Origin: Sipunculus nudus
Lineage: Eukaryota > Annelida > Sipuncula > Golfingiida > Sipunculidae
Assembly (NCBI GenBank): GCA_026874595.1
Contig: CM049313.1
Span: 17,295,508 to 17,359,507, forward strand
Reading direction: 5' to 3'
Length of the DNA: 64,000 bases
Part shown: positions 1,398-53,700 of the stretch, piece by piece
Numbering within the stretch: the first letter of the stretch is position 1
Layout of the letters: every line of letters begins with the position of its first letter
Translations under genes and position numbers: made by a program
Notes under the pieces: generated by a model
Databases searched by the model: none
What the model saw: only the letters and a program-made list of their open reading frames with translations
What the model was told of the DNA's origin: nothing

Positions 1398-3486
1398 CTG
1401 TAAAAAATATGAAATAATGTCCAGTTAATATTGTATTTAGACTAAGTTAAAATAGACATCAATTCCAAATATAGTTTTGCAAGGACGAAGAAAAACAATG
1501 CCCCAAGGACCCAAAGTCTTAAAACTCCAAAAATTCACCTGCTTTTTCTATATAAGCGAGGTGCATTCTGGCTTTCTCTGAGTAGTAATGATGTCCATTT
1601 CATTCCTGTTAAACCCGTCTTATAATGCCTCCTAAATTACGTATGACCTTGTTTATCTACAAGCTGTTTGTAAACACGCAAATGTTGACAAAAAAGCATA
1701 AAAAGTCATCCTAAGGTGGTTGGTTGCATACATGCAGAAGTTCAAAGTCTCTTGTTGCAAAACCTCTTTGCAAAATTGCGTTTGTATGACTTGTCTCTAG
1801 ATGCCCTTGCTCATTTGTATTTTGTGGACGTTACAAACAGGTGGATATAAACAAAACAAACAGCCTGTGTGCGGTTGGATCAGGGTTTCTGGCCTACTTT
1901 GTAAAAGGTACAAGGACTGTACTTTAGTTAATAGACGTCAGATATTCTACTAGACCAGAAATCACATATGTTCAAAAACACCTGTGACTAGGAGGTAACA
2001 TTGTGATCTTTGTATGTACGATTGAGGTATTTTTCAAATGAGGGATGTTTTCAAATGTTTTGGTTGTACCGGTACTCTAGTCTGTTCCATTTCCTCATGA
2101 CCATCTGTTTTTTTTTCTCGCTAGGAAAGATTTTATTCGTTTCATTTCAAGGGTAAAACATGGTAATGTAGGGGAAAAAATTGAAGGGCCTTATTTTCAA
2201 CATTGTTCATACCTTCATAAAGAGACATAATTATTTTAATATATGAGAAATCAGTCTACATTTTATTGCATAAATGGCCCACTTATGGCGATCAAGATCA
2301 AATGGTTTTAGCACAAACAGCATCAATCGATAGCGGCTGATTTGATTTGGCCATTTAATCCTTTGGAAAAATATAACCAACTAAACAAAAAAGCTACTTA
2401 CATATCTGTGAGACCATAGTAAAGCGTCCAAAAGTTGTGAAACGTAAACTAGAAATTTATTGTACAATTCAGAATTGTCTTATTATTCCGTCACTTCCAT
2501 ATTCAGCTTTCTGAATTTTAAACTTTAAGAAATTTAGTTCGTGTAACATGCTTTAAGTTAGACTCGCCTAGTCGATGCAATGTTTAGACTTTATTTATCC
2601 CAATTAAGCCTAGCTTTCACTAACTACATTCTGTCTACGGTTCGCCACGTTCTTGAAGGTCGTAGGAGGATTTGGTAGGACGTCGCCTTTTTTACCGTTG
2701 GACACCGTACGGGGACGTGAATAACCGTGAATGGTCGTGCGGGGTCTACGTTGTCTTGGAAATGTTCAAAACGAACGTGACAGAACGTGGTCCCTGACAG
2801 AAATGTGCACCCTGTGGCACCTGGATAAAAATGGGCGTGTCAAACCCTGGGAGCTTGACCACGGTAAATCCTCTTGTCATTTCAGCACTTTGTCCATTGC
2901 AGTAGGATACCGTAGGAAAACGTGACTGAACATGATTACCGTGTCATTGCCTTGACCCTGCCGTAGGAGAACGTAGATAATAGAAGTATCAGTAGCTACT
3001 AACAGTAGCAGTACCGTAGCGAGAACGCGGAGAGCACTTGGAAGAACGGGGCCTACCCACGTTCTTCTACGGCAAGCCACGTTTCACCGTAGGAAAACGT
3101 GGTTATTACCATGGCAGCTCCGTTGATGAATGTGAAATACCGTGGGAGAAACGTGTCACGAGAACGCAGGCTTCAATCTTATCACGTTCATTCCCGACAC
3201 TGAAACGTTCTGGTTTGCCGTAGCTGAACCGTCAGACACCGTAGAAGGACATGGGGAGACCTAGGCTTAACAGAGCCATCAAACTTGCTGTTGCTCTGTT
3301 GCAACGCTGAACACAGGTACTGCCATCTCGCATCAAATAATATTAGAGTTAGCACTAAGTAACGTCTATCTGTACATGGAATCACGTTTAACATTCGGCA
3401 TTTTAGCAGCAAACGTAAATACTACGGTCTAGGCAGGGTAGAAATAGAAGACTAAATTCTACATGTTATTGTGCAGATTTACCAAC
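1398..3486 (-). other. Gene A intron 19
   Basis: 2089 bp. Most of it aligns with gene B intron 19. It holds the A-specific inserted element at 2604-3270 and the empty site (TGTGCG, 1868-1873) of the MITE-like element found in gene B. Confidence 0.75.
2604..3270. mobile_element. A-specific insertion with TTAA ends and CCGTAG/ACGTG subrepeats
   Basis: 667 bp bounded by exact inverted ends TTAAGCCTAG and CTAGGCTTAA. The matching stretch of gene B (around 48650) lacks it. The interior has many scattered copies, in both orientations, of a short motif like CCGTAGGAnAACGTG (for example 2909-2924, 2962-2976, 3088-3103). TTAA at both ends would fit a piggyBac-type target duplication with a GCCTAG inverted repeat, or the TIR may simply include TTAA. 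No transposase is seen, so it is non-autonomous. Confidence 0.6.
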
Positions 3487-3708
3487 CTGCATATAATCCG
3501 GACTCTGACTGGCACAGTGTACAACCATCTCAGTCTTCTCTCCTCCTGGAACAGCAAGAGCTGCCAAAGGTTCCATGTAGAAGTGTTCCTGAGGACTCAT
3601 CTCAACCTCCCCCTCCAGAACGTGGTCTGCCTCACTCATCCCCGAATCCACGTCCCCCATCTCAAAAACATTCGGAGGCGCCAGGAATGACTCGGCTGCT
3701 ACGGCGTC
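3487..3708 (-). CDS. Gene A exon 19
   Basis: 222 bp, 74 codons, phase 0 at both ends. It encodes [20 protein letters not shown] and HCASQSPDYMQ, which hold the conserved QEHFYLE segment and the glutamine matching bovine Gln767. Donor GTTGGT is weak and shared with B. Confidence 0.93.
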
Positions 3709-4631
3709 CTGTATCAGATAAAAAGCTATGCAAAGGTGTTTTTTATAGATTAACATTTTGAAAGTTTTAGGTAGTTCTATTTAATTATTATATGATATTT
3801 AAAAGTAAAAAAAAACCGCTGTGGTACCTTGAACGACAATTATATAACCGCGATACAATTATCTAACGACTTGTTAAGAATCCTCCAGTATAAAGGAATA
3901 TAACGGCGCCATATGCAAAGACAATGTTGGAAGCTGTTTTTTTCAGGTGAGGTATTGGACTCAAGCCTTAAGTTTAATGTCAGTCCTCTTAGGTTTTTGA
4001 ATGCATCTTAAAAGTAAATGTTTGAACGTAAATGATGAAATACGTGCTTATAAGCTTGTATTGTTCAGTTGATGGGGTTTTTATAAAGATGTGCAGATTA
4101 ATGTCTATCCGGCAGGCATCATTATGGGCACATACTAGTTGGTACATAACACAATCTTTGGTCCCGCCTCACAAATGCATGATATTAACCCTTGAAGTGT
4201 CGGAAACCATGTAGAATCTTTCACTGGGGGCCAAAATTTTGCCTACCAATCTTGAGGAATTTGACATTATTTGTGAAATTTCGCAAAGGTCTCCTCTCTC
4301 ACAGCGCCATCAACCGACACTACAACAATCTATCAAGGGATGAACACGGTACATGGAAAACACATTGGCACAAATTTCCGTTTTTATTTGGTATTGGAAT
4401 GTCTTGAACTATGACATTTATGTCAAAGGAGTTTTGTTTTCCATAAAATCCATTTAATCTGGAGAAATAAGACATTTTTATTAGGAAAATTCTGTGAAAG
4501 TTATGTTACCCAGAGTGTCAAGCGATTAAACTCGGCCAATGGAAAATCCGTCCCTGACAACCAAGCCGAAGTGGCGCGGACCTGTCCCACTGTAAAACCA
4601 GGTAATATGGCAGGAATTCATAATATCTTAC
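3709..4631 (-). other. Gene A intron 18
   Basis: 923 bp with nothing recognisable. Gene B has about 1.7 kb extra at the equivalent place next to exon 18. Confidence 0.75.
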
Positions 4632-16845: not shown

Positions 16846-17257
16846 TGTAACCGGACACACAAAAGCGTTCCTACTGGCCTGGCTAGTGAAGTTTGCTTTA
16901 TTAGTGAAGCGGTAGAACGTCTGACTTGTATGTCAAAGGTTACGGGTTCGAACGCACATTCGGGCCTGGTTTCTATTTTCACCGGTTACAAATGGTGACA
17001 GCGGTGGGATCCGGGGAGTTGCTGTCGTGGCATAATGCCAAAACCAGTTCATTTGTGTGACCCCCGGGATAGATTCCCACGTTCTGGGGACAGAACGTTC
17101 TCGGAGAGGTGGTGAATGTAACCGGACACACAAAAGCGTTCTTACTGCCCTTGCTAGTGAAGCTTGCTTTATTAGCGTAGCGGTATACGTTTGATTTGTG
17201 TGTCACAAGTGACGGATTCGAACCCACATTCGGGCCTTGTTTCAATTGTCACCCGCT

Positions 17258-17260
<3 letters not shown>
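16846..17260 (+). mobile_element. Miniature LTR element (TRIM-like) with tRNA-like sequence in each LTR
   Basis: Two direct repeats, 16846-16990 (145 bp) and 17117-17260 (144 bp), each start TGTAACCGG and end in CCGGTTACA or CCCGCTACA. Between them lie only 126 bp. These begin, two bases after LTR1, with TGGTGACAGCGGTGGGAT, a typical primer-binding-site form, and end in the purine-rich tract GGAGAGGTGGTGAA just before LTR2. No coding capacity. Each LTR holds an A-box-like TAGTGAAGCGG/TAGCGTAGCGG and a B-box-like GGTTCGAACGC/GATTCGAACCC; the LTR1 copy has CTGACTTGTA as in tRNA-Thr(UGU). The target duplication is unclear because the element sits in (TA)n/(TG)n DNA. Confidence 0.75.
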
Positions 17261-25046: not shown

Positions 25047-27748
25047 AATTTTAAATTTCAAACGAAATTTGTCCAGGACCTAGGCCTGATGCATACTATT
25101 TATACCCATCTGGTACTCAAATTGTTTTAGCCTGTCACGTGCAGGTTTCCAATGGGATTTGCCATGATCTCCCTTGGTGTTGTGTTGGAAGATTTTAGGG
25201 CTTAAGGATATAATTTCTGCGCTATCTGACTGTATTTGTCATGTACTATATAAGAATTAAGTTTCCTAATTTTAGGATTCAAAGAAAATTTCCCAAAGAC
25301 CTCCATAGACTTTTCAATATAAGGCTCAAGGGAAAATAGATATAATTTGTACCTGGATGCTTATATTCATAATTTTATGGCTGATAGCACTTAGAATTTA
25401 GCCTGTGCACCATGACATAATTTCTTGTATCAGAAGAGTTTTGCCTATAACCACTATGGATATTGCTATAGAATATTCTAGGCCTAGTGTATACATTTTG
25501 TGCCCTATCTGACTGTATTTGACATGTACTATAAGAATTAATTTACCTAATTTCTGGATTCAAAGAAAACTTGTCAAAGACCTCCCTAGACTTTTCCAAA
25601 AAAGGTACTTAGGAAAATTAAATACAATTTGTACCTTGTCTGTCTGGATGCGTAAATTCATATTTTTATGGCTAATAGCACATAGAATTAAGCCTGTGCA
25701 CCATGACTGTATTTGTCATGTACTTTATAAGAATTAAGTTTCCTAATTTTAGGATTCAAAGAAAATTTCCCAAAGACCTCCATAGATTTTTCAATATAAG
25801 GCTCAAAGGAAAATAGATATAATTTGAACTGGATGCTTATATTCATAATTTTATGGCTGTTAGCACTTAGAATTTAGCCTGTGCACCATGACATAATTTT
25901 TGTATCAGAAGAGTTTTGCCTATAACCACTACGGATATTGCTATAGAAGATTCTAGACCTAGTGTATACATTTTGTGCCCTATCTGACTGTATTTGACAT
26001 GTACTATAAGAATTAATTTACCTAATTTCTGGATTCAAAGAAAACTTGTTAAAGACCTCCCTAGACTTTTCCAAAAAAGGTTCTTAGGAAAATTAGTTAC
26101 AATTTGTACCTTGTCTGTCTGGATGCGTAAATTCATATTTTTATGGCTAATAGCACATAGAATTAAGCCTGTGCATCATGACTGTATTTGTCATGTACTA
26201 TATAAGAACTAAGTTTCCTAATTTTAGGATTCAAAGAAAATTTCCAAAAGACCTCCATAGATTTTTCAATATAAGGCTCAAAGGAAAATAGATATAATTT
26301 TTACCTGGATGCTTATATTCATAATTTTATGGCTGTTAGCACTTAGAATTTAGCCTATGTACCATAACATAATTTTTGTATCAGAAGAGGTTTGCCTATA
26401 ACCACTATGGATATTGCTATAGAAGATTCTAGACCTAGTGTATACATTTTGTGCCCTATCTGACTGTATTTGACATGTACTATAAGAATTAATTTACCTA
26501 ATTTCTGGATTCAAAGAAAACTTGTTAAAGACCTCCCTAGACTTTTCCAAAAAAGGTTCTTAGGAAAATTAGATACAATTTGTACCTTGTCTGTCTGGAT
26601 GCGTAAATTCATATTTTTATGGCTAATAGCACATAGAATTAAGCCTGTGCACCATGACTGTATTTGTCATGTACTATATAAGAATTAAGTTTCCAAAATT
26701 TAGGATTCAAAGAAAATTTCCCAAAGACCTCCATAGATTTTTCAATATAAGGCTCAAAGGAAAATAGATATAATTTGTACCTGGATGCTTATATTCATAA
26801 TTTTATGGCTGATAGCACATAGAATTAAGCCTGTGCACCATGACATAGTTTATTGTATCCAAAGAGTTTTGCGTATAACCTCTCTGGATGTTGTTATAAA
26901 AGATTCTAGGCCTAGTGTTTACAATTTGTGCCAATCTGACTGTTTTTGACATGTACTATTAGAATTAATTTACCTAATTTCAGGATTGAAAGAAAACTTG
27001 CCAAAGACCTCCCTAGAATTTTCAATTTTAAGGTTCTTAGGAAATAGATATAATATGTACCTTGTCTGTCTGGATGATTAAATTCATACTATTATTGCTA
27101 ATAGCACATAGAATTAAGCCTGTGCACCACGAAATAATTTCTTGTTTCCAAGGGCATTTGCCTGGTACCTCTCTGAATATTATGTCAGATTATTCTGCGG
27201 TTAATGTATACAATGCGTGCCCCGTCTGTCTAGGTGCACAAAATATTTTTTTGGCCTCTAGGTCGCAAAATATAGGTCACATGACCTAATTAATGGTTTC
27301 AGAAGAGATGTGCCAAGCACATGTGGCTTTTGGGTTAAAAGATTTTTTACTTAACAGACACAATAAGTGCCTATCTGGCATTCTGGTGCTCATATGACGT
27401 ATTTTTTCCCATAAGTTACAGGAAAAAAAGTACCGTGAGGTAATTTTAGGTTACCTAGGACATTTGCCTAGGACCTCAGGGAATGTTCATAAGAAATGTC
27501 TAGGCCTAATTTGTGCAATTTCTAGGTACAATTTGTGCATCGTCTAACATTCTGGGTGCTCAAACAATTTTTCAGCCCATAGGTTACAGAATACAAGTCA
27601 ACATAACTATTTCAGTTTAAAAGGACATTTGACAAGGACATCTCAGAATGTAACATTTGAATATTCTAGGCCTAACGGATACAATGTGTGCCCTGTCTGA
27701 CTTTCTTGGTGCTCAAAACCCTGTTTTTTTTCTGAAGGTCGCAAATGT

Positions 27749-34656: not shown

Positions 34657-37019
34657 TTTGCCATTTTAATTACTACATTATTATCTGACCTGGAGGAATC
34701 CTCCTTCAATTTGTCCGATGTCAATGCCCGGATTTAAACTTCGACCGACGTCCATCACGATGTCTGTACGCAGCACCTGTCAATCAAACAATATCTTGAA
34801 GGTGTTAAGGATGCCCAGGATATATGTGGCATAGTAACACTACACTTCACAGTAAAATGGAAAGTTTTAGTACAGAAAGCAATGTTTGTGCTCATTCTAC
34901 TTAAGCGCAAGAGAAAAAAGGAATTCGTTATACCGGTTTTCAAATAAAATGATTTTAAATCTGTTTTAAAATATTTTTTTATTTCTCTAAAAGTAAATAT
35001 GAATTATGCTTTAAACAAAGAACAACCTCCTTTTCTGGTGTTTTACACCTTGTTATGATTATTCCAGAGTAAACACGGCCCACATGTGTTTGTTTGGCAT
35101 AACAAAGCCACGGGCCATATATCCGAGTGTACGCTTGCACGACAGGTCAATAACATGAATGCAAACGGTTGTAAATATCGCGCCCGGTCCACCTTTTAAT
35201 ATTCGTTTACTGGAGTAAGGCAACGGATTCAATACATTTTGACAGGAAACATTTTATTTGAAAGGAGAGACGCTATTTTTCCATTTATTTCAACATGTTT
35301 TGTACATGATAAGAACCATTCGATGGTATTTTTGAATGGACGGTTCAAGTGGATATATGTAAAACACAGAAGTTTAAACAAAAATGTTTTGTGACCTAGA
35401 CGTAAAAAGGAAATCTGGAAAAAAAGATCGTAGAAATGTTTCCAGAAAATCTATGAAAAACATGATCAAACGCCATGAAACACGCGCTTATCCGTTTTAC
35501 GGGACGGCAGCTCATAAAAAATCCTGATAGGTTATAAACAGATATTAAAGTTGTAAAACTCGTGAGGTACCACTTAACCTGTTTGGCTACTCAGTCTTAA
35601 AGGGTCTCGTGTAATAGGATTATGTACCTGTGCGTGTGTCATTAGACGCCCGGCACCTTGTCTTAAACACTATCAGTAATTTATCTGATCGATGTTTTAG
35701 TTGGTTCACTCGTTTGTTATCTAGATTTTTTTGCACAGAGGTTTTCTTTTTCAAACTTTTGTACTTGCATTTTTTAGGATCAAAAGAGTCCTAAACCCCT
35801 GTAGACTGACGATTTGGAAAGATTAGGCTAAATCTTTAGATTTCAAACTATCTTGCGGTTTGAAAAATACATCATTGCCAAAGAAAACAATACAAACAGT
35901 ACAAATCTGTGACATTTTGAACAATTCATTTGTATTTCTTATTTTCATACCACTGATATCAATATTATCCGTAAAGGTTTAAAATAATTGGCCACTGAAG
36001 GATAACGAAACTTTGACACACTTATTAACACTTATTGTGTCACGTGTCTTACTTGATGTGCTCCCGTAAGACAGTCAATCTGAACCTCTGAGCAGCTCAC
36101 ACCGTATGAAAAGTATTCATGCATGCGGCCTTGTTTTGTCGTGTCGTCATAGTTGATCCGAGGGTATCTGTAGACAGAGTTGATCAAGCATATACATCAT
36201 CACATATCATGAAGACCAAGATTGATCAAGCATAAATATCATCACATATAATGAAGTCTAAAGTTGATCAAGTATATATTTATCATTACATATCATTATG
36301 TAGAAAGTTGATCAAGTATATATTCCATCAAATATCAAGAAGTCTAAAGTTGATCGAGTATATACATCATCAGAAATCATGAATTCTAAATTTGATCAAC
36401 TACATACATCATCAAATATCATCAATTGAAAGTTGAACAAGTATATATACCATCACAAATCAAGAAGTCTTAAGTTGATCAAGCAATTATATCATAACAT
36501 TTGAAGAAGTCTTTTTTTGATCAAGCATATATATCATCCCATATCATGGTCTAAAGTTGATCAAGAATATGGTTCATCTCATATCATGGCGTCTAAATTC
36601 TATCAAATATATATACAATCAAATATCATGACGTCTAAAGTTGATCAAGTATATACATCATCATACATCATGAATTTTAAAGTTCATCTGGTATATATAT
36701 CATCACATATTATGAAGTCTTAAGTTGGTCAAGCCCGTATTTTACCACATATCATTATGAATTATTTCAATTTTTATTTCTTTCATCTAAGTATCATCTC
36801 AAGAAATATATACTGATGCGATTGAATAATTACAAGTTCCATAAACCCCTTTATTTACGTACGTATAAAGAGCAGTTGCCGACAGTGATACGCTGTCAAG
36901 ATATGCGTCAAATACCTGAAACAAGAAAAAAAATTATATTATATAAATATTTTCTGTATATTGAATATGATATTAATATTTTTTCAGCATGTCTAATAAC
37001 ATTAGAAAATCAAGTATTA

Positions 37020-44774: not shown

Positions 44775-47700
44775 GAATCTATTTTCCTAGCTTTCGCTGA
44801 TGATGTCAGGAAGAATGATTTAAGGACCATTATTTAGATTTTAAACTTAACCTTGCTGCATTGTAAAATAAAGTGAAAATTCAATACATAATAAAAACAT
44901 ATTTTGGTATGGACTTTACTAAGCAGAATATCAGATTGACTTAGCCTAATAATATTTTTCCACAATATATAATACATTTTTTTTGTAATTATGGTTCAGT
45001 AAAAAGGTTGCATTACGTACTTCATAGCTGCTAGGCTTGCAGGGCCTATCACCATATAAGACTGGAATTGCTTGCCTCCAAAACTTCCACCTGTAAATAA
45101 TAAGAAACAAAACGAAAACTAAGTATTTCCCTATCTAAAATATATTGAACCTGCGGAATCTGCCTCTATTCTTTACAGCTAAAATTGAGATTTTTAATCA
45201 GGTCTATTGTTATACCACACGTGAGCTTCTTAGCTCGTGCAGCAATCTCCGCCTTGTCTGCTGTTATAATGAGTACATAAATATGTGCAATAAAACAACA
45301 AAACCTTCCCGCCACCTGTTTTAAACTTTGTAAATGTTATGTGTTAGCGTCATATGGACCCTCAGGCATTACGACAAGATTACTGGCAACATAGTGTCTT
45401 TATATCTAAGTCTGAGGATTATAAGGCCTTATGAAGATGCATATATTTTCGTCATTTCTGACAACGCTTCGTGGCCTACAGGTACACTGTCAGTCAACAT
45501 AAACCGGACCAGTCGTTAGCATTTTTGTGTCCTATCTAATGATACGAAACATGAGCAAGAAAAGTTCCGTTTTAATCGAGAACACTGGTAAAACCCTCGG
45601 CATGTTTGTTGAAATTATGACCGCATAATCAGGCGATACAGGCAATGACCGTGTCCACCGAAACGGTGTTTCCGTTTGGATTTTGCGCTCTCATGTATAC
45701 TATTGTGTTAAATTATCATTCTAAGCTTAATATTGAGATTTTTGGTCGTTTGTCACGATATGAATGCAACTTGATGCAAGACCACTGCGATACATTCATC
45801 GATATAACTTGTATCACGACTCAAGTAGGCTTACAAGCCCGATTATCCGATTGCCTACTGCGTCGGGTTGTCACGGCTGATTATGTGTGTGAACAAACAC
45901 CGAGACCGAGTGTCTGTTTACAGTAACATGACTGAGACCGAGAAAACTTCCAGACAAGGAGAAGAAATTGAAAGGAGAGACACATGAGAGACACCAGTTA
46001 AATAGTTGAAAAATCTTCCTTTGTGCACCGGCACCGCTATCATCTATCGCATCAGTGATCGCGCCCCAAGCAAATTCTGTTTCCACTCGGTCAAAGGGTT
46101 ATATTTGCATATAATGATATATTTTAAAGAGGACACACTGTACATTATGTATATGTAACGTACCTGGATTGTTAACATATCTCTGTAAGGCATATAAAAG
46201 AGTAAGAATCTTATGTAATACATACCCATACGTTTGATTTTTATCACAATCCTGTTTGCTGGCACCCCAAGCACGTCAGCAACAACTCTCTGTAAGAAAT
46301 AAAATATCATATCCAATCAGTATGGTAATTAGACTAAATTAATAGAGATCAGTTCCAGATATAGTTTGCAGGAACGACGGAAAAACAATGCCCCAAGGAC
46401 CCAAAGTCTTAAAGCCAGCTATTCACCTGTCTTTTATATAAAAAGCTTTTGATTTCTGGCCTACTCTGCGTTTAATAATCTCCTTTTAATTACTGTTCAA
46501 ACCTTTCTTATAATGCTTCCGTGATGGACGTATGAAGTTGTTTACTACAAGCTGTTTGTTAACATTTCCTTGTTGAATGTGTATGTTTTGTATTTTGCGG
46601 ACGTTATAAAAATTAAGGTGGATATAAACAAAACGAACAGCCTGTGTGCGCTAAGACTGGTACCCCGCTCCTGTGTGGCCTCGCTTTTCTAAGCTAATCA
46701 TTGAGACGGGGGCCAAACGCCACCTTCAATACTCCCATTTTAACTCCTGATCTCCGGAAGACTGGTTTCAACTCCAATATGCACATTCAAGCTGGTTGCA
46801 ATGGACGCTCAAGCGGTTCTGACTACCAGTGAAGAGTTTTTGTAAGACAACTTTCTTTTGTCACTTCTGCACAAAAATTGATTGATGTATATATAAAACG
46901 ATACACTTAATACGTTTGATATTCCACTGTACGTGGCATTGATTAATCATGAACATCTATTCATCTAATCATTAATGTCAAATGAAATGTACAGCCAACT
47001 TTTGGCAGCTTCCCCGAGCAAACCTAGCGTTTATTTTTCTCATATATATACATATTGGAGTTGTAACCAGTCTACCGGGAGTACTGAAGATGGCTTTTTG
47101 CCTCGTCACTATGATTGGATGAGAGCAGCCGGACCACAATGGAGCGGGGTACCAGATTAGTGTGCAGTGGGATCAAAGTGTTCTGACCTACATTGTAAAA
47201 TGTTCAAGGGATGTCCTTTAGTTAATAGACGTCAGATATTCAACTTACCACCTTAAGGCTTGATAAGAAATCAATTATGTTCAAAAACACTTGTTATTGT
47301 GGGTCAATATTTTGATCTTTAAATGTTTAATTTAGGTTTTTTAAAGTGTCGAAACCGAAGTCTTGGTTATACTGTTACTTTAGTCTGTTCCATTCCCTCA
47401 TGACCTGTTTTTTTTATTGCTAGGAAAGTTTTTATTCGTTACATTTCAAGGGAAAAATATAGTAATATGGGGCATAAAATTAAAGTGCCTAATTTTCAAC
47501 TTTGTAAATACCTTCCTGAAGAAACATAATTATGTAAACATCTACAACAGTCGACATTTACAGCATATCAGCTCACTTATGGCGATCATGATCAAATGGT
47601 CCTACGCACAAACAGCATCAATTGACAGCCGCTGATTAGACAATGTCATGTAACCCTTTCAATATATAACCAACTTAATCAAAGATGGCTAGTCACACAG

Positions 47701-50700
47701 GGACACATCTGATTTTGAGACATTTCTTAAGAGTCCAAAAGTTGCGAAACAAAATGGAAATATATTGTACAATTCCGAACTGTCTTATTTTTCCGTGTTA
47801 TGGAACCTCATAACAACAGATCACGTAATCGTGACGAGCATAAATTTTGTTACGGAGATAAAAAATCAGATTCCACAACACTAGGCAGCGTGAAATGTCT
47901 AGGGGAATGATCAAAGAAGTCAGTGTTTTTTTTAACAAATAGTTATAATTTTCTACTTAGAATAATCCTAACATTAAAATACACTAAATCAATAAAATTA
48001 CAAAGTAAAACAATAATAAAAAAAGTAAAGTACCAGAGTGCGGATCCTAGGCCTTAATTCTGGATACCACAACTGTCATAGTCTCTCAAGAGTCTTTTAG
48101 CATAAATATTCCAGATGAACAGTTCATGTTTTTAACTTTCAGAGAATAGTCCGATTTATATCTCGGAACAAGTCTGTTGTAATCTAAAAGTGAAGATCTG
48201 GTAATAAACCAAACGGCAGACTGAAGGCAATCCGTATATAAAGTCTGTATAAAGTCCGTAGAAGATCTGTAAGTTCTGCAATTATCGGGAAGTGCCCAAA
48301 AACTGACGAGAGAGTCACACTCGACCGTGTCCGCTGGTATTTTTCTCTCTGCCGGCTCCAAACACAGCCCCTATTTAAAGCTTTTTTTTAAAGCCTTCTA
48401 GACTACACCGACCACGCTGTCATTAAACTCCAGTACGGTTCGCATATCAGCGCACAAGGTTTGCGCTTAACACGAATTAGAATGCCTAGCACGTGCCAAG
48501 TTATGTAATATCCCTGGCATAACAAACAGATACATGTAACATCCGTCACTTCCACAATCAGCTTTCTAAATGTTTAACTTTTGAGAAAATTATCCAAAAG
48601 GACAACAACAACAACAAAAAACAGGTTTACAAAGATCTGTTAAGACTATTCCTCTAACCAACACAACCATCAAACTTGCTCGTGGTGTGTCGCAACGCAT
48701 AGAACAGGTACTGCAACCTCACGGCAAATTATATAACTAAATTCGCACCGAGTAACGTCTATCGGTACATGGAATCACGTTTTACTTTCCGCATTTTAGT
48801 AACAAATGTAAACACTAAAGCCCAGACCGGCTAGGAACAGACAACTTAGTTCTACCTGTAAGTCTACTGATTTTACCAACCTGCATAAAATCCGGACTCT
48901 GAGTGGTACAGTGAACCACCATCTCATTCTTCTCACCTCCGGGAACAGCCAGAGCTGCCTGAGGTTCCATGTAGAAGTGTTCCTGAGGACCCATTTCAAC
49001 CTCCCCCTCCAGAACGTGGTCTGCCTCCGTCATCCCCGCATCCACATCCCCGATCTCAAATACATTCGCAGGCGCCAGGAATGACTCGGCTGCTACGGCG
49101 TCCTATATCAGATAATGAAACGATACAATTATGTTTTTTTTAGGGATTAACATTTTGAAAGTTAAAGGGAGTTTCATTTTATTATCATATGATTTTTAAA
49201 GGGTCAAAAACCGCTGTGGTTCATAGTAGGACAACTATCTAACAGTGATACATTGACCAGTTATTTGTATCTAGCAAGAATAAACACAACTTGACAAGTA
49301 TCCTCCAGCTTAAAAAAAATTATAGCGCAAACGGAAAGGAAAATTTTGAAAGCTGTTTTTTTTTAAGGTGAGGATCTTGACTTAAGCCTTAAGTTTATAA
49401 ATTATAATGGCAGTTTTCTTAATTTAAAAATATAGAGGGTTTAGAAGAAAAATATCTCATACGTGAGATAAGGTTAAACGTAAAAGATATAAGACGTGCT
49501 CACAAGCTTGTATTGTTCAGTTTATATGGTTTTCTAAAGAAGCGTAGATATAAGTCAACCTTACAGACGGCTCACAGGCACTTAACAGTTTGTACACTAT
49601 TCATCTCTGGCCATGCCTTAAAAAATTCCGATTTTTCCCTAGACGTGACAGAAACGATGTTGCGTATGTCACTGGGAGGCTCATATTCCTACACATCAAG
49701 AGGATTTTAACATTATTTGTGAAATTTCGCATAGGTCTACAAGAGCGCCATCTATCCGAAACTACTACAATCTGTCAAGTGATGAACAAACAGCATGGGA
49801 AACACAATGGCACTAATTTCCTTATCCTTAAGTAAAATGTTTATATCACTCAGAATATCCAGGAATTGAACTCGGACAAGAAATAACCCGTCCCTGACAA
49901 CCCATCCGAATTTGCGCGGACCTGTCCAAACGTAAAACCGGGTTATATGGCAGAATTAGTTCCACCCGAGGAAAATCCACGGTCCCATATGATGAAATTT
50001 TTGTTATGAGCTGGTAGGTACCGAAAGTCGCAAATATTTATCCCGTTCTTCTCGCAGGGGCTGTTGTTCATGATATAAAGATCACTTGTGCTAGGATTCT
50101 CCAGGAAACCCCCTCCCCTATAAAAAGTCAGCAAAGAATGGCAAATTACGCTAGTCGAGAAATCACACAAAGAAGTAGACGTGACGTATATATAGGGTAT
50201 ACGATTTCTGCTTGAGGCTGCTTTTTTTTATTCCGATAAACAACATGGGGACGACATCACCACTGCCGAAGTGTTGGCGGTCATGGCGATTGTACATTTT
50301 CTATATCGTGAAAATAATTTGAAGAAATTATATGAATGTATCTAGAAAATTCAAAGTTTATGAAAGATAATATGCATAAATAAAATCTCCAAAGACATCT
50401 TGAAAAATGATGTTGTCAATAAAGGCTCTTGCATGCGAAAATGCAAGTAAAAGCTGCCAGTGTGGAATGACAGGCTCAGGCAAATAGACTCCTTCAGTAT
50501 TAAATGCTTGTCCTGAGCTTGCTTGATTGTCATAAGGTTGATCGGACACTAATGGTGCTTCCAGATAAATGGCCGGTTAACATCTTTTGTTGCAAGTTAT
50601 TTTAGGCAATGACATAACATCAAATCTGATTCTTTGTTTTGTCTTAAGAAAATAAACGCAAAAAGGTATAGCCGAATTTTTCCAGAAAAAAAGCAGAGGG

Positions 50701-53700
50701 TTCACGTTAATCCGTATGAACGATCCATTAAATTTTGGAGGTAATCAGAATCAAAATAATATGTTATTTTTTCTTAAATACCATTTTGACAAAAGAAAAA
50801 TTTTCTTAGTCCCATGTAGAAGCCACCCATTCGTATGCATTTGGTCTGCCCTTCGCTAGGTGAAACCGGGTCACTGAAGCGTAACAGTGTTTATACATGA
50901 AAAGTATGCATATGAACACATGACTGATAAATAGATTCTGATGGAGGTTTTTAGGCTCCGACTGCAGAATTTAGTTTATTAATATAATTCCTATCCGTTT
51001 TAATATATACTGTTAACAAATTTTCATGTTTCAAAGTCCCCGAAGATTGCGGATCCTTAAAAAATGTAAACACCCTTCAATCTTTGTTTAAGTTGTAGTG
51101 TTTTGAAAAACTTTTTTTTTCAAACAATCCATCAGTTTTATGAACTATTGAAAGCATGGTCATATTGGAAAGATATTTATGAATGTATAGAAATCACCAT
51201 ACCTGTAAACCCATAACAAGTCAAAGGAGATTCTTAACACTGGTCGTGTTAATCCAAGTGAAAAGCCCTCGCTTTGAAAGCGAAGTCAAATGTTCTTTGT
51301 TTTCAAATAAAAAGCTTAACTTCCAGTTGAGGGATGTATTGGTATAAATTAGAATTACAGTGGACCTATGATTCCGATATTGCCCAATACGCTCTGTGGC
51401 AGGTGAGTTCGAAATGCAAGAAAATCTCCAAGGCACCTCCTTGGAAAAACCGATGAGCGCAGATGACCTTATAGCACAAAAGAAATAGAAGCACCTTTTG
51501 GGGGAATGTTAAAATATTAATTTTGCAGTTTTATAGGGCATAATCCTGCAAAATGAAACAAACTTGACCTAAAAGACCTGAAACATGTGCCGAATTTCGA
51601 AGGCCACATCAGAACGGAAGCAGGCAAACCATTGTCTAGGGATGAAAACATCTGCGTATCTATTATATAAATAACAAAATATGTTACCTCAGTGGTTAGA
51701 ATTGCGGGAACAATATCTTCATATTCAATCTGCACTTTCTCTGATGCTTGTTTGGCCTTGTCTCTAGACTCGGCTACAACCACTCCGATCGGATGTCCGA
51801 CACAAGATACCTACACGGATGAGACACAAGACTCTGAGGTTTTTTAAATAATATCTTCATAATGCAATCTTATAGGTGCTGAATTAAATATTTCCTACAC
51901 AAACCCATATTCTCAAAATAGAAAGTCAATCCGACTTTGGTGTCCGTCCGGCTGATGATAAGAATCAAGGAGGAACTCCAAGGAATATTCAGAAAAGTAG
52001 AGTAACATGTGCACGATTGGACGTGGTAATATTGGCCGAATAAATTAAAGCGAACATTTGTTAGGTAACTTATACACCAATGAACATGTGAATAAGGGTT
52101 ACCTACATAGATAACACACAAGACTGCAAGTTTTTAACAATATCTTCATATTGTAATCTTATAGGTGTTGAATTAAATATGTCCTACACAGCCCCTTATT
52201 CTAAAGTTGTTCCACCGGTATCGTTTGGGGGTAAGAAGAGCGATATCTGTGACATAGGAATTGTATTATCAGTGCCAATGAGCGGTCCAATTACTCTCAC
52301 TGAAATATGTTAGCACATATTGTTATTTGGAGTAATTTTAGAGATAAATGTTATCATTTGATCACCATGCTGTTTTATGGGCGAATCCAGGATTTAAAAA
52401 AAAGGAGGCGTTCAACCCAGGAGCACTTATAACAAAACGGCAATGACGGCATGCTGGGAGCAAATAATGAAACCAAATTTTTTTCAAATGATAATACAGT
52501 CTACTGTCAAATAAATTTGAATAGATGTGACATAAAACATATAATTTCTGTTCCTGTTGTGTTACTATGACATATTTTGATCAGGCCTTTTTTCTGTTAA
52601 TTTGATGCCGAAAGATTTCAAATCGTTTGCACCACTTGACATCTGGTGATCACCCTTTGGGGCCCTTTTACACACGGCTGCGACCTTTATGCCACCTTTG
52701 AGCAACCCAAAAATGGCCAGGACGCTCAATGGTCGCCTAAACCCAGAAAATCCTGTATCTGTGTAACTGTTTCAGCGATACTTGTGCCTCCCTTGAACAT
52801 CCCAAAATGCAAATCCTCTGCATCACCTTTACAACCAACACAGCCACTGTTTCTCCATACTGCAACCACGACAATGCTTGTGCCTCCCGTCTGCCTGCTT
52901 TGAGCCACCTTTGAGCAACCCACCTCCTCGACGTACTTGGTGCGATTGTTTTTGAATACGTTTTAAAATTCATGTCGACCATGGCTTCCATCACGAAGTC
53001 TGAAACTCTTGTGTACCCGCTTTGAAAGATCCAGGCAAGCATTGAGCCTCCAACGACGACCTGGTAAATTTTGTGGTCGCACACGGGAGGCACTAGGATC
53101 GTCATTCTGTGTAAAGGCTGCTTAAAGGAGGCAGCATAAACTCATGTTTTCAAAGACTCTGCTACATATGGCCGGTATCTAGGGAGGATTCAGTTGTGAT
53201 CAGTCATCCGTGAACACTGCACAGTTTGGGGGCCAAGCACGTGAAACCAAACCAAGCACACTGACTCATGATCCGAAAAGTAAGGATTTAAGGAATACTC
53301 ACTAAAATGCAGTGACATATATGCACGATTAAACATGGGAATTTCAGTCAAACACTTGTTGCACCAGTGAACCTGGGAATACGGGTCAATAAGTGAATGA
53401 AAACACGGGTTGTGGATTACCCCACATTCAGGACCGCCCAATTGGCGGAGTTCTAGTTATAATTTTGACCAATGGAAGCCCTGTTAGATAGTGTATTTTT
53501 TAACTGCGGAGGAAAATTAAGACCTCTACGAATTATTGTTTATATCTAACACAATAAGTCGTGCGTTTCAGACAACAGTTAAGCTGCGTTTATGCGATAT
53601 GAGATGAGAGACGTTTGTATGTCTTTATTATTATTTTAGTCCAATCCTTTTACAATCGTTTTTGCCCCTTATTATGCGGAATTTAAACTAAACTGGTAAT

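Follow-up and report, generated by a model that had tools for sequence, protein, structure and literature searches.

The 415-bp element at positions 16846-17260 on the plus strand of the window (the whole 64-kb stretch of DNA analysed here) is very probably an old copy of a still-young, non-coding TRIM family of the Helenus type, with a length of about 415 bp. Copies of this family elsewhere in the genome probably preserve a record of reverse transcriptase over-copying its modified tRNA primer. The record would comprise stops at nucleotides 59, 38 and 27 of tRNA-Leu, an inosine at position 34 that was read as G, and a product of the stop at nucleotide 37 that survived through microhomology and whose integration left a 4-bp duplication. 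It would also include the rewriting of the primer binding site (PBS) from the primer, with switches between types of tRNA-Leu.

As the preliminary description had claimed, the element consists of two LTRs of about 145 bp with TG..CA ends, a PBS, a purine-rich tract and no genes, and each LTR carries sequences resembling A and B boxes (in both LTRs the A box is exact and the B box has one mismatch). Judged by its sequence, it is a TRIM: the TG..CA LTR pair is short, the whole is below 1 kb and gene-less, and a PBS and a polypurine tract (PPT) are present, with the target site duplication (TSD) seen at the family level and not at the window copy. Its features are listed below.

16846..16990, plus strand: 5' LTR, 145 bp, TGTAACCGG...CCGGTTACA, with full-length relatives elsewhere in the genome
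16902..16912, plus strand: A box of the 5' LTR, TAGTGAAGCGG, an exact match to TRGYNNANNNG
16945..16955, plus strand: B box of the 5' LTR, GGTTCGAACGC, one mismatch against GGTTCGANNCC
16976..16979, plus strand: TTTT, a possible weak Pol III terminator, missing in the 3' LTR of the window copy
16991-17116: internal region, 126 bp
16993..17010, plus strand: PBS, TGGTGACAGCGGTGGGAT, one difference from the exact family PBS
17102..17116, plus strand: position of the polypurine tract, CGGAGAGGTGGTGAA, 12 of 15 bases purines
17117..17260, plus strand: 3' LTR, 144 bp
17173..17183, plus strand: A box of the 3' LTR, TAGCGTAGCGG, exact
17215..17225, plus strand: B box of the 3' LTR, GATTCGAACCC, one mismatch

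Both LTRs of the window copy begin with TGTAACCGG. The 5' LTR ends with CCGGTTACA, which gives perfect inverted termini of 9 bp, and the 3' LTR ends with GCTACA (inverted termini of 4 bp). When the two are aligned, 124 columns are identical, with 20 substitutions and one gap (86% identity, K2P 0.154), and the copy is therefore considered old. The PPT-like end, CGGAGAGGTGGTGAA, is impure, and 2.9% of the 15-mers in the window attain its 12 of 15 purines. No coding frame of at least 120 codons was found at the element. The copy is flanked by a (TA)n/(TG)n tract on one side and a (TA)n tract on the other, and no TSD is visible in the flanks (TGTT/AATA), which lie in microsatellite. Further copies inside the 64-kb window were not found by blastn, and a scan of viral contigs with the LTR start gave 0 matches. 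RNA folding of the window LTRs is stronger than that of shuffled sequences (z -5.0 and -4.0), the fold is unlike that of a tRNA, and a hairpin of 10-11 bp within it ends inside the A box.

Other features of the window were also observed. Minus-strand frames at 3469-3780, 48818-49102 and 51520-51810 (three of nine frames) match xanthine dehydrogenase/aldehyde oxidase domains in Pfam. Similar-looking frames lie at 1128-1424 and 46047-46316, the latter with no Pfam hit, which suggests tandem paralogues. A 476-bp unit is repeated in tandem at 25227-27129 (four copies, 94% matches), and a 42-bp unit is repeated 13 times at 36178-36733.

The genome to which the window belongs (1.43 Gb in 153 contigs) contains many relatives of the element. 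A search with the element itself, in which 40 of 562 candidates were scored, returned at least 48 matches, and 44 of them are 88-100% identical to it over a length of 400 bases or more out of 415. A 27-base string around the B box occurs 306 times in the genome with up to three mismatches, versus 0 times for the reversed control. The sample described below consists of 40 distinct loci, including the window copy, with 84 LTRs and 44 internal regions; two of an initial 42 loci, L015 and L042, were left out because they overlap L006 and L007. The LTR pair is identical in nine of the 40 loci and differs by two substitutions at most in 27, and recent activity of the family is therefore suggested. 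A purine tract, CGGAGAGGGGGTGAA, which is not pure purine, precedes the 3' LTR in 33 of the 44 internal regions. Tandem LTR-internal-LTR arrays are found at L006, L010 and L035. A lone LTR was present at five of eight single-looking sites that were fetched, three of the five having a 4-bp duplication (two TATA and one AATG).

An exact TSD of 4 bp is present in 26 of the 40 loci and absent from 14, and duplications of exactly 3 bp or exactly 5 bp were found in none. Chance matches are frequent, with a mean of 11.9 in re-paired flanks of the 40 loci, because TATA is common in the flanks. When only the loci with TATA in neither flank are considered, 10 of 13 match; the re-paired mean is then 1.1, and none of 20,000 shuffles reaches 10. 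The insertion sites are rich in TA repeats. (TA)5 lies within 20 bp of the insertion on at least one side in 19 of the 40 loci and on both sides in 10, compared with 1.5% of window positions (at least one side), a baseline that comes from one window only, and slippage after insertion could inflate the (TA)5 count.

The A and B boxes are the basis for assigning a promoter to the LTRs. They are separated by 32 bp in the 5' LTR and 31 bp in the 3' LTR of the window copy, and the two LTRs do not share the position of the B-box mismatch. On either strand of the window, no other box pair combines an exact A box with a B box of at most one mismatch at a distance of 25-60 bp. In controls, such pairs occurred five times in 60 first-order Markov sequences of 64 kb and in 11 of 40,000 145-mers of LTR composition. 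Across the 40 loci, both boxes are perfect in 77 of the 84 LTRs and the spacing is 32 bp in 81. TTTT follows on the 3' side of the B box in 75 LTRs, and neither AATAAA nor ATTAAA is found on the plus strand of any of the 84. Boxes and PBS share one strand. Since the family is young, the conservation of the boxes largely reflects recency rather than selection.

The possibility of a tRNA gene inside the LTR was rejected. The Rfam tRNA model, a check that had been proposed for the LTR, has no match in the window element even at E<=10 and none in two LTRs of L010, and neither the window element nor any of the 84 LTRs, young ones included, yields a tRNA with ARAGORN at default settings. At a lowered threshold (-ps80), 65 of the 84 LTRs have weak hits that ARAGORN leaves undetermined, and these were not counted as support. 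The tRNA-Thr-like anticodon arm of the preliminary description rests on the letters TGT and is not upheld by these models. Because the boxes are present and no tRNA model matches, the LTRs are described as having a promoter signature of the tRNA type and no actual tRNA. From the boxes, we infer that the element may be transcribed by Pol III. Since TTTT sits in the LTR upstream of the PBS, the polymerase would have to read past it in the 5' LTR to make a full-length RNA. Multi-unit transcripts of the plant TRIM Cassandra are a precedent for such read-through (PMC7215508).

Two other readings of this anatomy were weighed. In the first, the element would be a SINE or SINE dimer, that is, tandem tRNA-headed units spread by a LINE. 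Short, non-coding units that each carry A and B boxes, and the tandem arrays at L006, L010 and L035, are in keeping with it. However, LINE-type insertion does not account for TG..CA termini, a PBS for a known tRNA and a purine tract, nor for the 4-bp TSD in 26 of 40 loci and in three of the five lone LTRs. LTR pairs with two substitutions at most in 27 of 40 loci and PBS variants that match two types of tRNA-Leu also speak against it. The preliminary description had proposed a genome search for full elements with target duplications, and had named as contrary outcomes copies with a single repeat only, as in a SINE dimer, or copies without PBS and TSD. In the search, other copies had a pair of LTRs, the PBS and duplications of 4 bp, neither of the contrary patterns came up, and a SINE, with LINE-type insertion and no LTR, PBS or PPT, was rejected with hardly any probability left to it. 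In the other reading, the element would be an ordinary TRIM transcribed by Pol II, with an LTR that only resembles a tRNA promoter. The missing Rfam tRNA match in the window element and the L010 LTRs and the strong fold unlike a tRNA favor this reading, which we regard as unlikely. Against it stand the box and spacing counts, the frequent TTTT and the missing AATAAA and ATTAAA in the 84 LTRs, the low chance rate of box pairs, and the same anatomy in the Helenus group. A TRIM with a putative tRNA-type Pol III promoter is therefore the preferred reading.

Helenus (TRIMp3) was described by Kojima in 2024 as a group of TRIMs in bivalves, wasps, fish and fungi (PMC10886601). Its members measure 311-1263 bp, carry A and B boxes derived from a tRNA in both LTRs, and have a PBS and a PPT; the TSD in animals is 4 bp, and tandem arrays are reported for LTR-11_DR (PMC10886601). 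In all these respects, the window family is alike. Seven bivalve families of Helenus are able to encode tRNA-Thr, and the group is likely driven by Gypsy elements; according to Kojima, Pol III transcription of Helenus is unproven (PMC10886601). Primers in bivalve Helenus are Lys, His, Ile, Pro, Glu and Ser, Leu is among those of wasps and vertebrates, and the primer here is tRNA-Leu. The available main text of that paper has no mention of 'microsatellite' and describes no tRNA over-copying (PMC10886601). Based on the LTR boxes, PBS, PPT and 4-bp TSD, the window family appears to be a Helenus member, a placement made by anatomy.

Several other TRIMs are similar in part. Cassandra also has a Pol III promoter in its LTR and forms tandem LTR-internal arrays, but the promoter is that of 5S rRNA instead of the tRNA type, and the PBS is TGGTATCAGAGC (PMC7215508). 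No 5S match was found with Rfam in the window element. The idea that the element is a tRNA counterpart of Cassandra in an animal is correct in outline; the design itself, however, is already published as Helenus (PMC10886601), and the window family adds one more family to that group. In Echinococcus, ta-TRIM and lennie are animal TRIMs with a tRNA-Leu PBS and a TSD of mostly 4 bp. They differ in having LTRs of about 198 bp and an internal region of about 590 bp, and the available text on them does not contain 'polymerase III' (PMC4558846). The biv-TRIM of bivalves is likewise a small animal TRIM that occurs in tandem arrays, but its repeats are 202-218 bp, its internal region is 77-80 bp, and it has no unambiguous PBS (PMC6934838).

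The primer is indicated by the PBS. The sequence TGGTGGCAGCGGTGGGAT is exact in 37 of the 44 internal regions, and it is fully complementary to a CCA tail and 15 nucleotides of a tRNA-Leu (AAG/TAG) present in the genome. The match ends at nucleotide 59, directly before A58. In a search with this tRNA-Leu 3' end, ARAGORN found a tRNA-Leu (AAG or TAG) at nine of ten loci, at the match itself in eight; the tenth locus, L047, is a TRIM. Counting TRIM loci, the 3' end has 65 matches in the genome. These include large tandem clusters. One, with ARAGORN AAG and TAG genes, lies at L049-L052 (C5:52.59-52.64 Mb) and another, with a spacing of about 2.2 kb, at C5:0.24-0.36 Mb; a similar tRNA cluster lies at C9:40.6-40.7 Mb. 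At L056, two differing tRNA-Leu PBS-like strings, TGGTGTCAGAAGTGGGATT and then TTGGTAGCAGCGGTGGGATT, are found in tandem.

Three copies, L023, L028 and L036, carry a different PBS, TGGTGTCAGAAGTGGGAT, that matches the 3' end of the tRNA-Leu(CAG) gene L062; in the search with this CAG version, ARAGORN reported a tRNA at one of ten loci. This variant also matches the 12-base PBS of Steamer as quoted in PMC8905726. The genome has seven exact sites for the CAG-type PBS and 18 with one mismatch, and these three were checked as TRIMs. When the LTRs are compared, L023, L028 and L036 are not the nearest relatives of one another. When the internal regions are compared, L023 and L036 are mutually nearest (96%, PBS included) and L028 is not, and the PBS change of L023 and L036 may for this reason be one event. 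Two or more switches of the tRNA-Leu primer are likely, with recombination as another possibility.

A Gypsy element may have supplied the proteins. The locus L098 (C5:83864630-83874629) is a chimera consisting of a Gypsy LTR, a TRIM internal region, a TRIM LTR and a Gypsy internal region, and both of its junctions fall within a shared 18-bp PBS. The Gypsy family L099-L101 has a PBS identical to that of the TRIM, and the LTRs of L101 are 99.7% identical. The pieces of L100 covered by the domain search contain a zinc knuckle, RT, RNase H and integrase, and they also give a dUTPase match below the cut-off. The purine tract and LTR start of this family are unlike those of the TRIM, which makes it either a candidate partner or a bystander.

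Four loci with a TRIM LTR (L071, L088, L089 and L093) carry clearly longer tRNA-Leu sequence behind the LTR than the usual PBS. They were found by screening for the PBS without the TRIM's own C after it, which gave 53 hits, of which 35 (30 + 5 loci) were compared. L094 was left out of the count since its 21-nt tRNA match behind a TRIM LTR is explained by one substitution, as was L095 (C16:1588156-1590156), which starts with the CCA-derived TGG and resembles tRNA-Leu at 42 of 58 nt but is not preceded by a TRIM LTR. Loci of the L064 type (e.g. C1:65192760) are frequent among the 53 hits; they belong to a separate LTR family that shares the tRNA-Leu PBS, and behind this PBS come an ATG and a stretch that looks open by eye. 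Compared with one AAG gene, the tails are identical at 57 of 58 nt in L071, 53 of 54 in L093, 46 of 47 in L088 and 45 of 47 in L089.

The tail of L071, which is the same locus as L047 and forms the right end of the array L006, ends before canonical position 26. Its sole difference from the gene turns the anticodon AAG into GAG, and the exact 21-base string with GAG has one occurrence in the 1.43 Gb. Reverse transcriptase reads inosine as G, so that a copied inosine-34 would be expected to give GAG where the gene has AAG. Inosine-34 in tRNA-Leu(AAG) exceeds 90% in the cells cited by PMC13191261. The last LTR of L071 is one substitution away from L003 and differs at four sites from the first LTR of the array, so that about one mutation in 58 nt is possible at this locus; a mutation that hits exactly nucleotide 34 and mimics the inosine signature is unlikely. 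The left end of L071 begins at the purine tract, and the locus spans from there to the tRNA. We infer that this extent could be that of a plus-strand strong-stop product from a tandem template. CCAG is present on both sides, either as a 4-bp duplication or as microhomology.

The tails of L088 and L089 are 47 nt long, end before position 37 and rejoin the TRIM internal region at a shared TGGTG. L088 has the TSD TACA and an LTR with no substitutions against L016 and L031, which are copies with the normal PBS, and its extension therefore looks recent. L089 is nine LTR differences away and has the flanks AATA/TATA; given this distance and the differing flanks, two events are likely. L093 consists of one LTR and a 54-nt tail whose lone difference fits the TAG gene by eye. 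This tail ends in the anticodon region within an A-run, which blurs the end and makes L093 uninformative on the stop position, and the end is not known to match a modified base. tRNA-Leu carries modified bases at positions 26 and 37 (m2,2G26 and m1G37). In HIV, the plus strand stops chiefly at m1A58, with a minor product at position 37 that reportedly is not used as an active template (PMC13191261).

As an alternative to primer copying, mutation or recombination with tRNA-Leu genes could have produced the four tRNA stretches. The genome has many such genes (the 65 3'-end matches include TRIM loci), a single substitution suffices for GAG, and homology at the PBS could favor gene conversion. However, the tails begin at the LTR with a TGG derived from CCA, which is missing from four gene contexts, and the exact GAG string is nowhere else in the genome. 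The tails end before nucleotide 37 twice and before nucleotide 26 once, and the plus strand of HIV stops at nucleotide 58 with a minor stop at 37 (PMC13191261). L088, moreover, carries a 4-bp TSD. An origin by recombination or mutation is thus improbable, and copying of the primer is preferred. Literature searches, which were too narrow to indicate absence, gave no report of integrated primer-tRNA over-copying with inosine reading, and the record described here may be new.

The following mechanism is proposed. In the 5' LTR, Pol III would start upstream of the A box and read past the leaky TTTT, and it would stop in the 3' LTR, giving an RNA with terminal redundancy. This RNA would be packaged in the particle of a Gypsy element, where mature tRNA-Leu would prime minus-strand DNA. 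The purine tract would prime the plus strand, which would run through the LTR into the tRNA and copy its first 18 nucleotides before the normal stop at m1A58. An integrase would insert the TRIM DNA with a strong preference for (TA)n. At the four loci, the plus strand would have extended further into the tRNA, with stops before nucleotide 37 (two loci), before nucleotide 26 (one locus, with 34 read as G) and in the anticodon region (one locus). When an over-copied primer is integrated, the PBS would therefore be rewritten from the primer, and the type of tRNA-Leu could be switched.

The window family has a very small, complete set of cis elements, consisting of a PBS, a purine tract, LTR ends and a tRNA-type promoter. 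If the mechanism holds, the tRNA tails are natural records of the primer and its modified bases. Recent insertions of this family would then let primer choice, primer switching and the stops at tRNA modifications be read from DNA alone.
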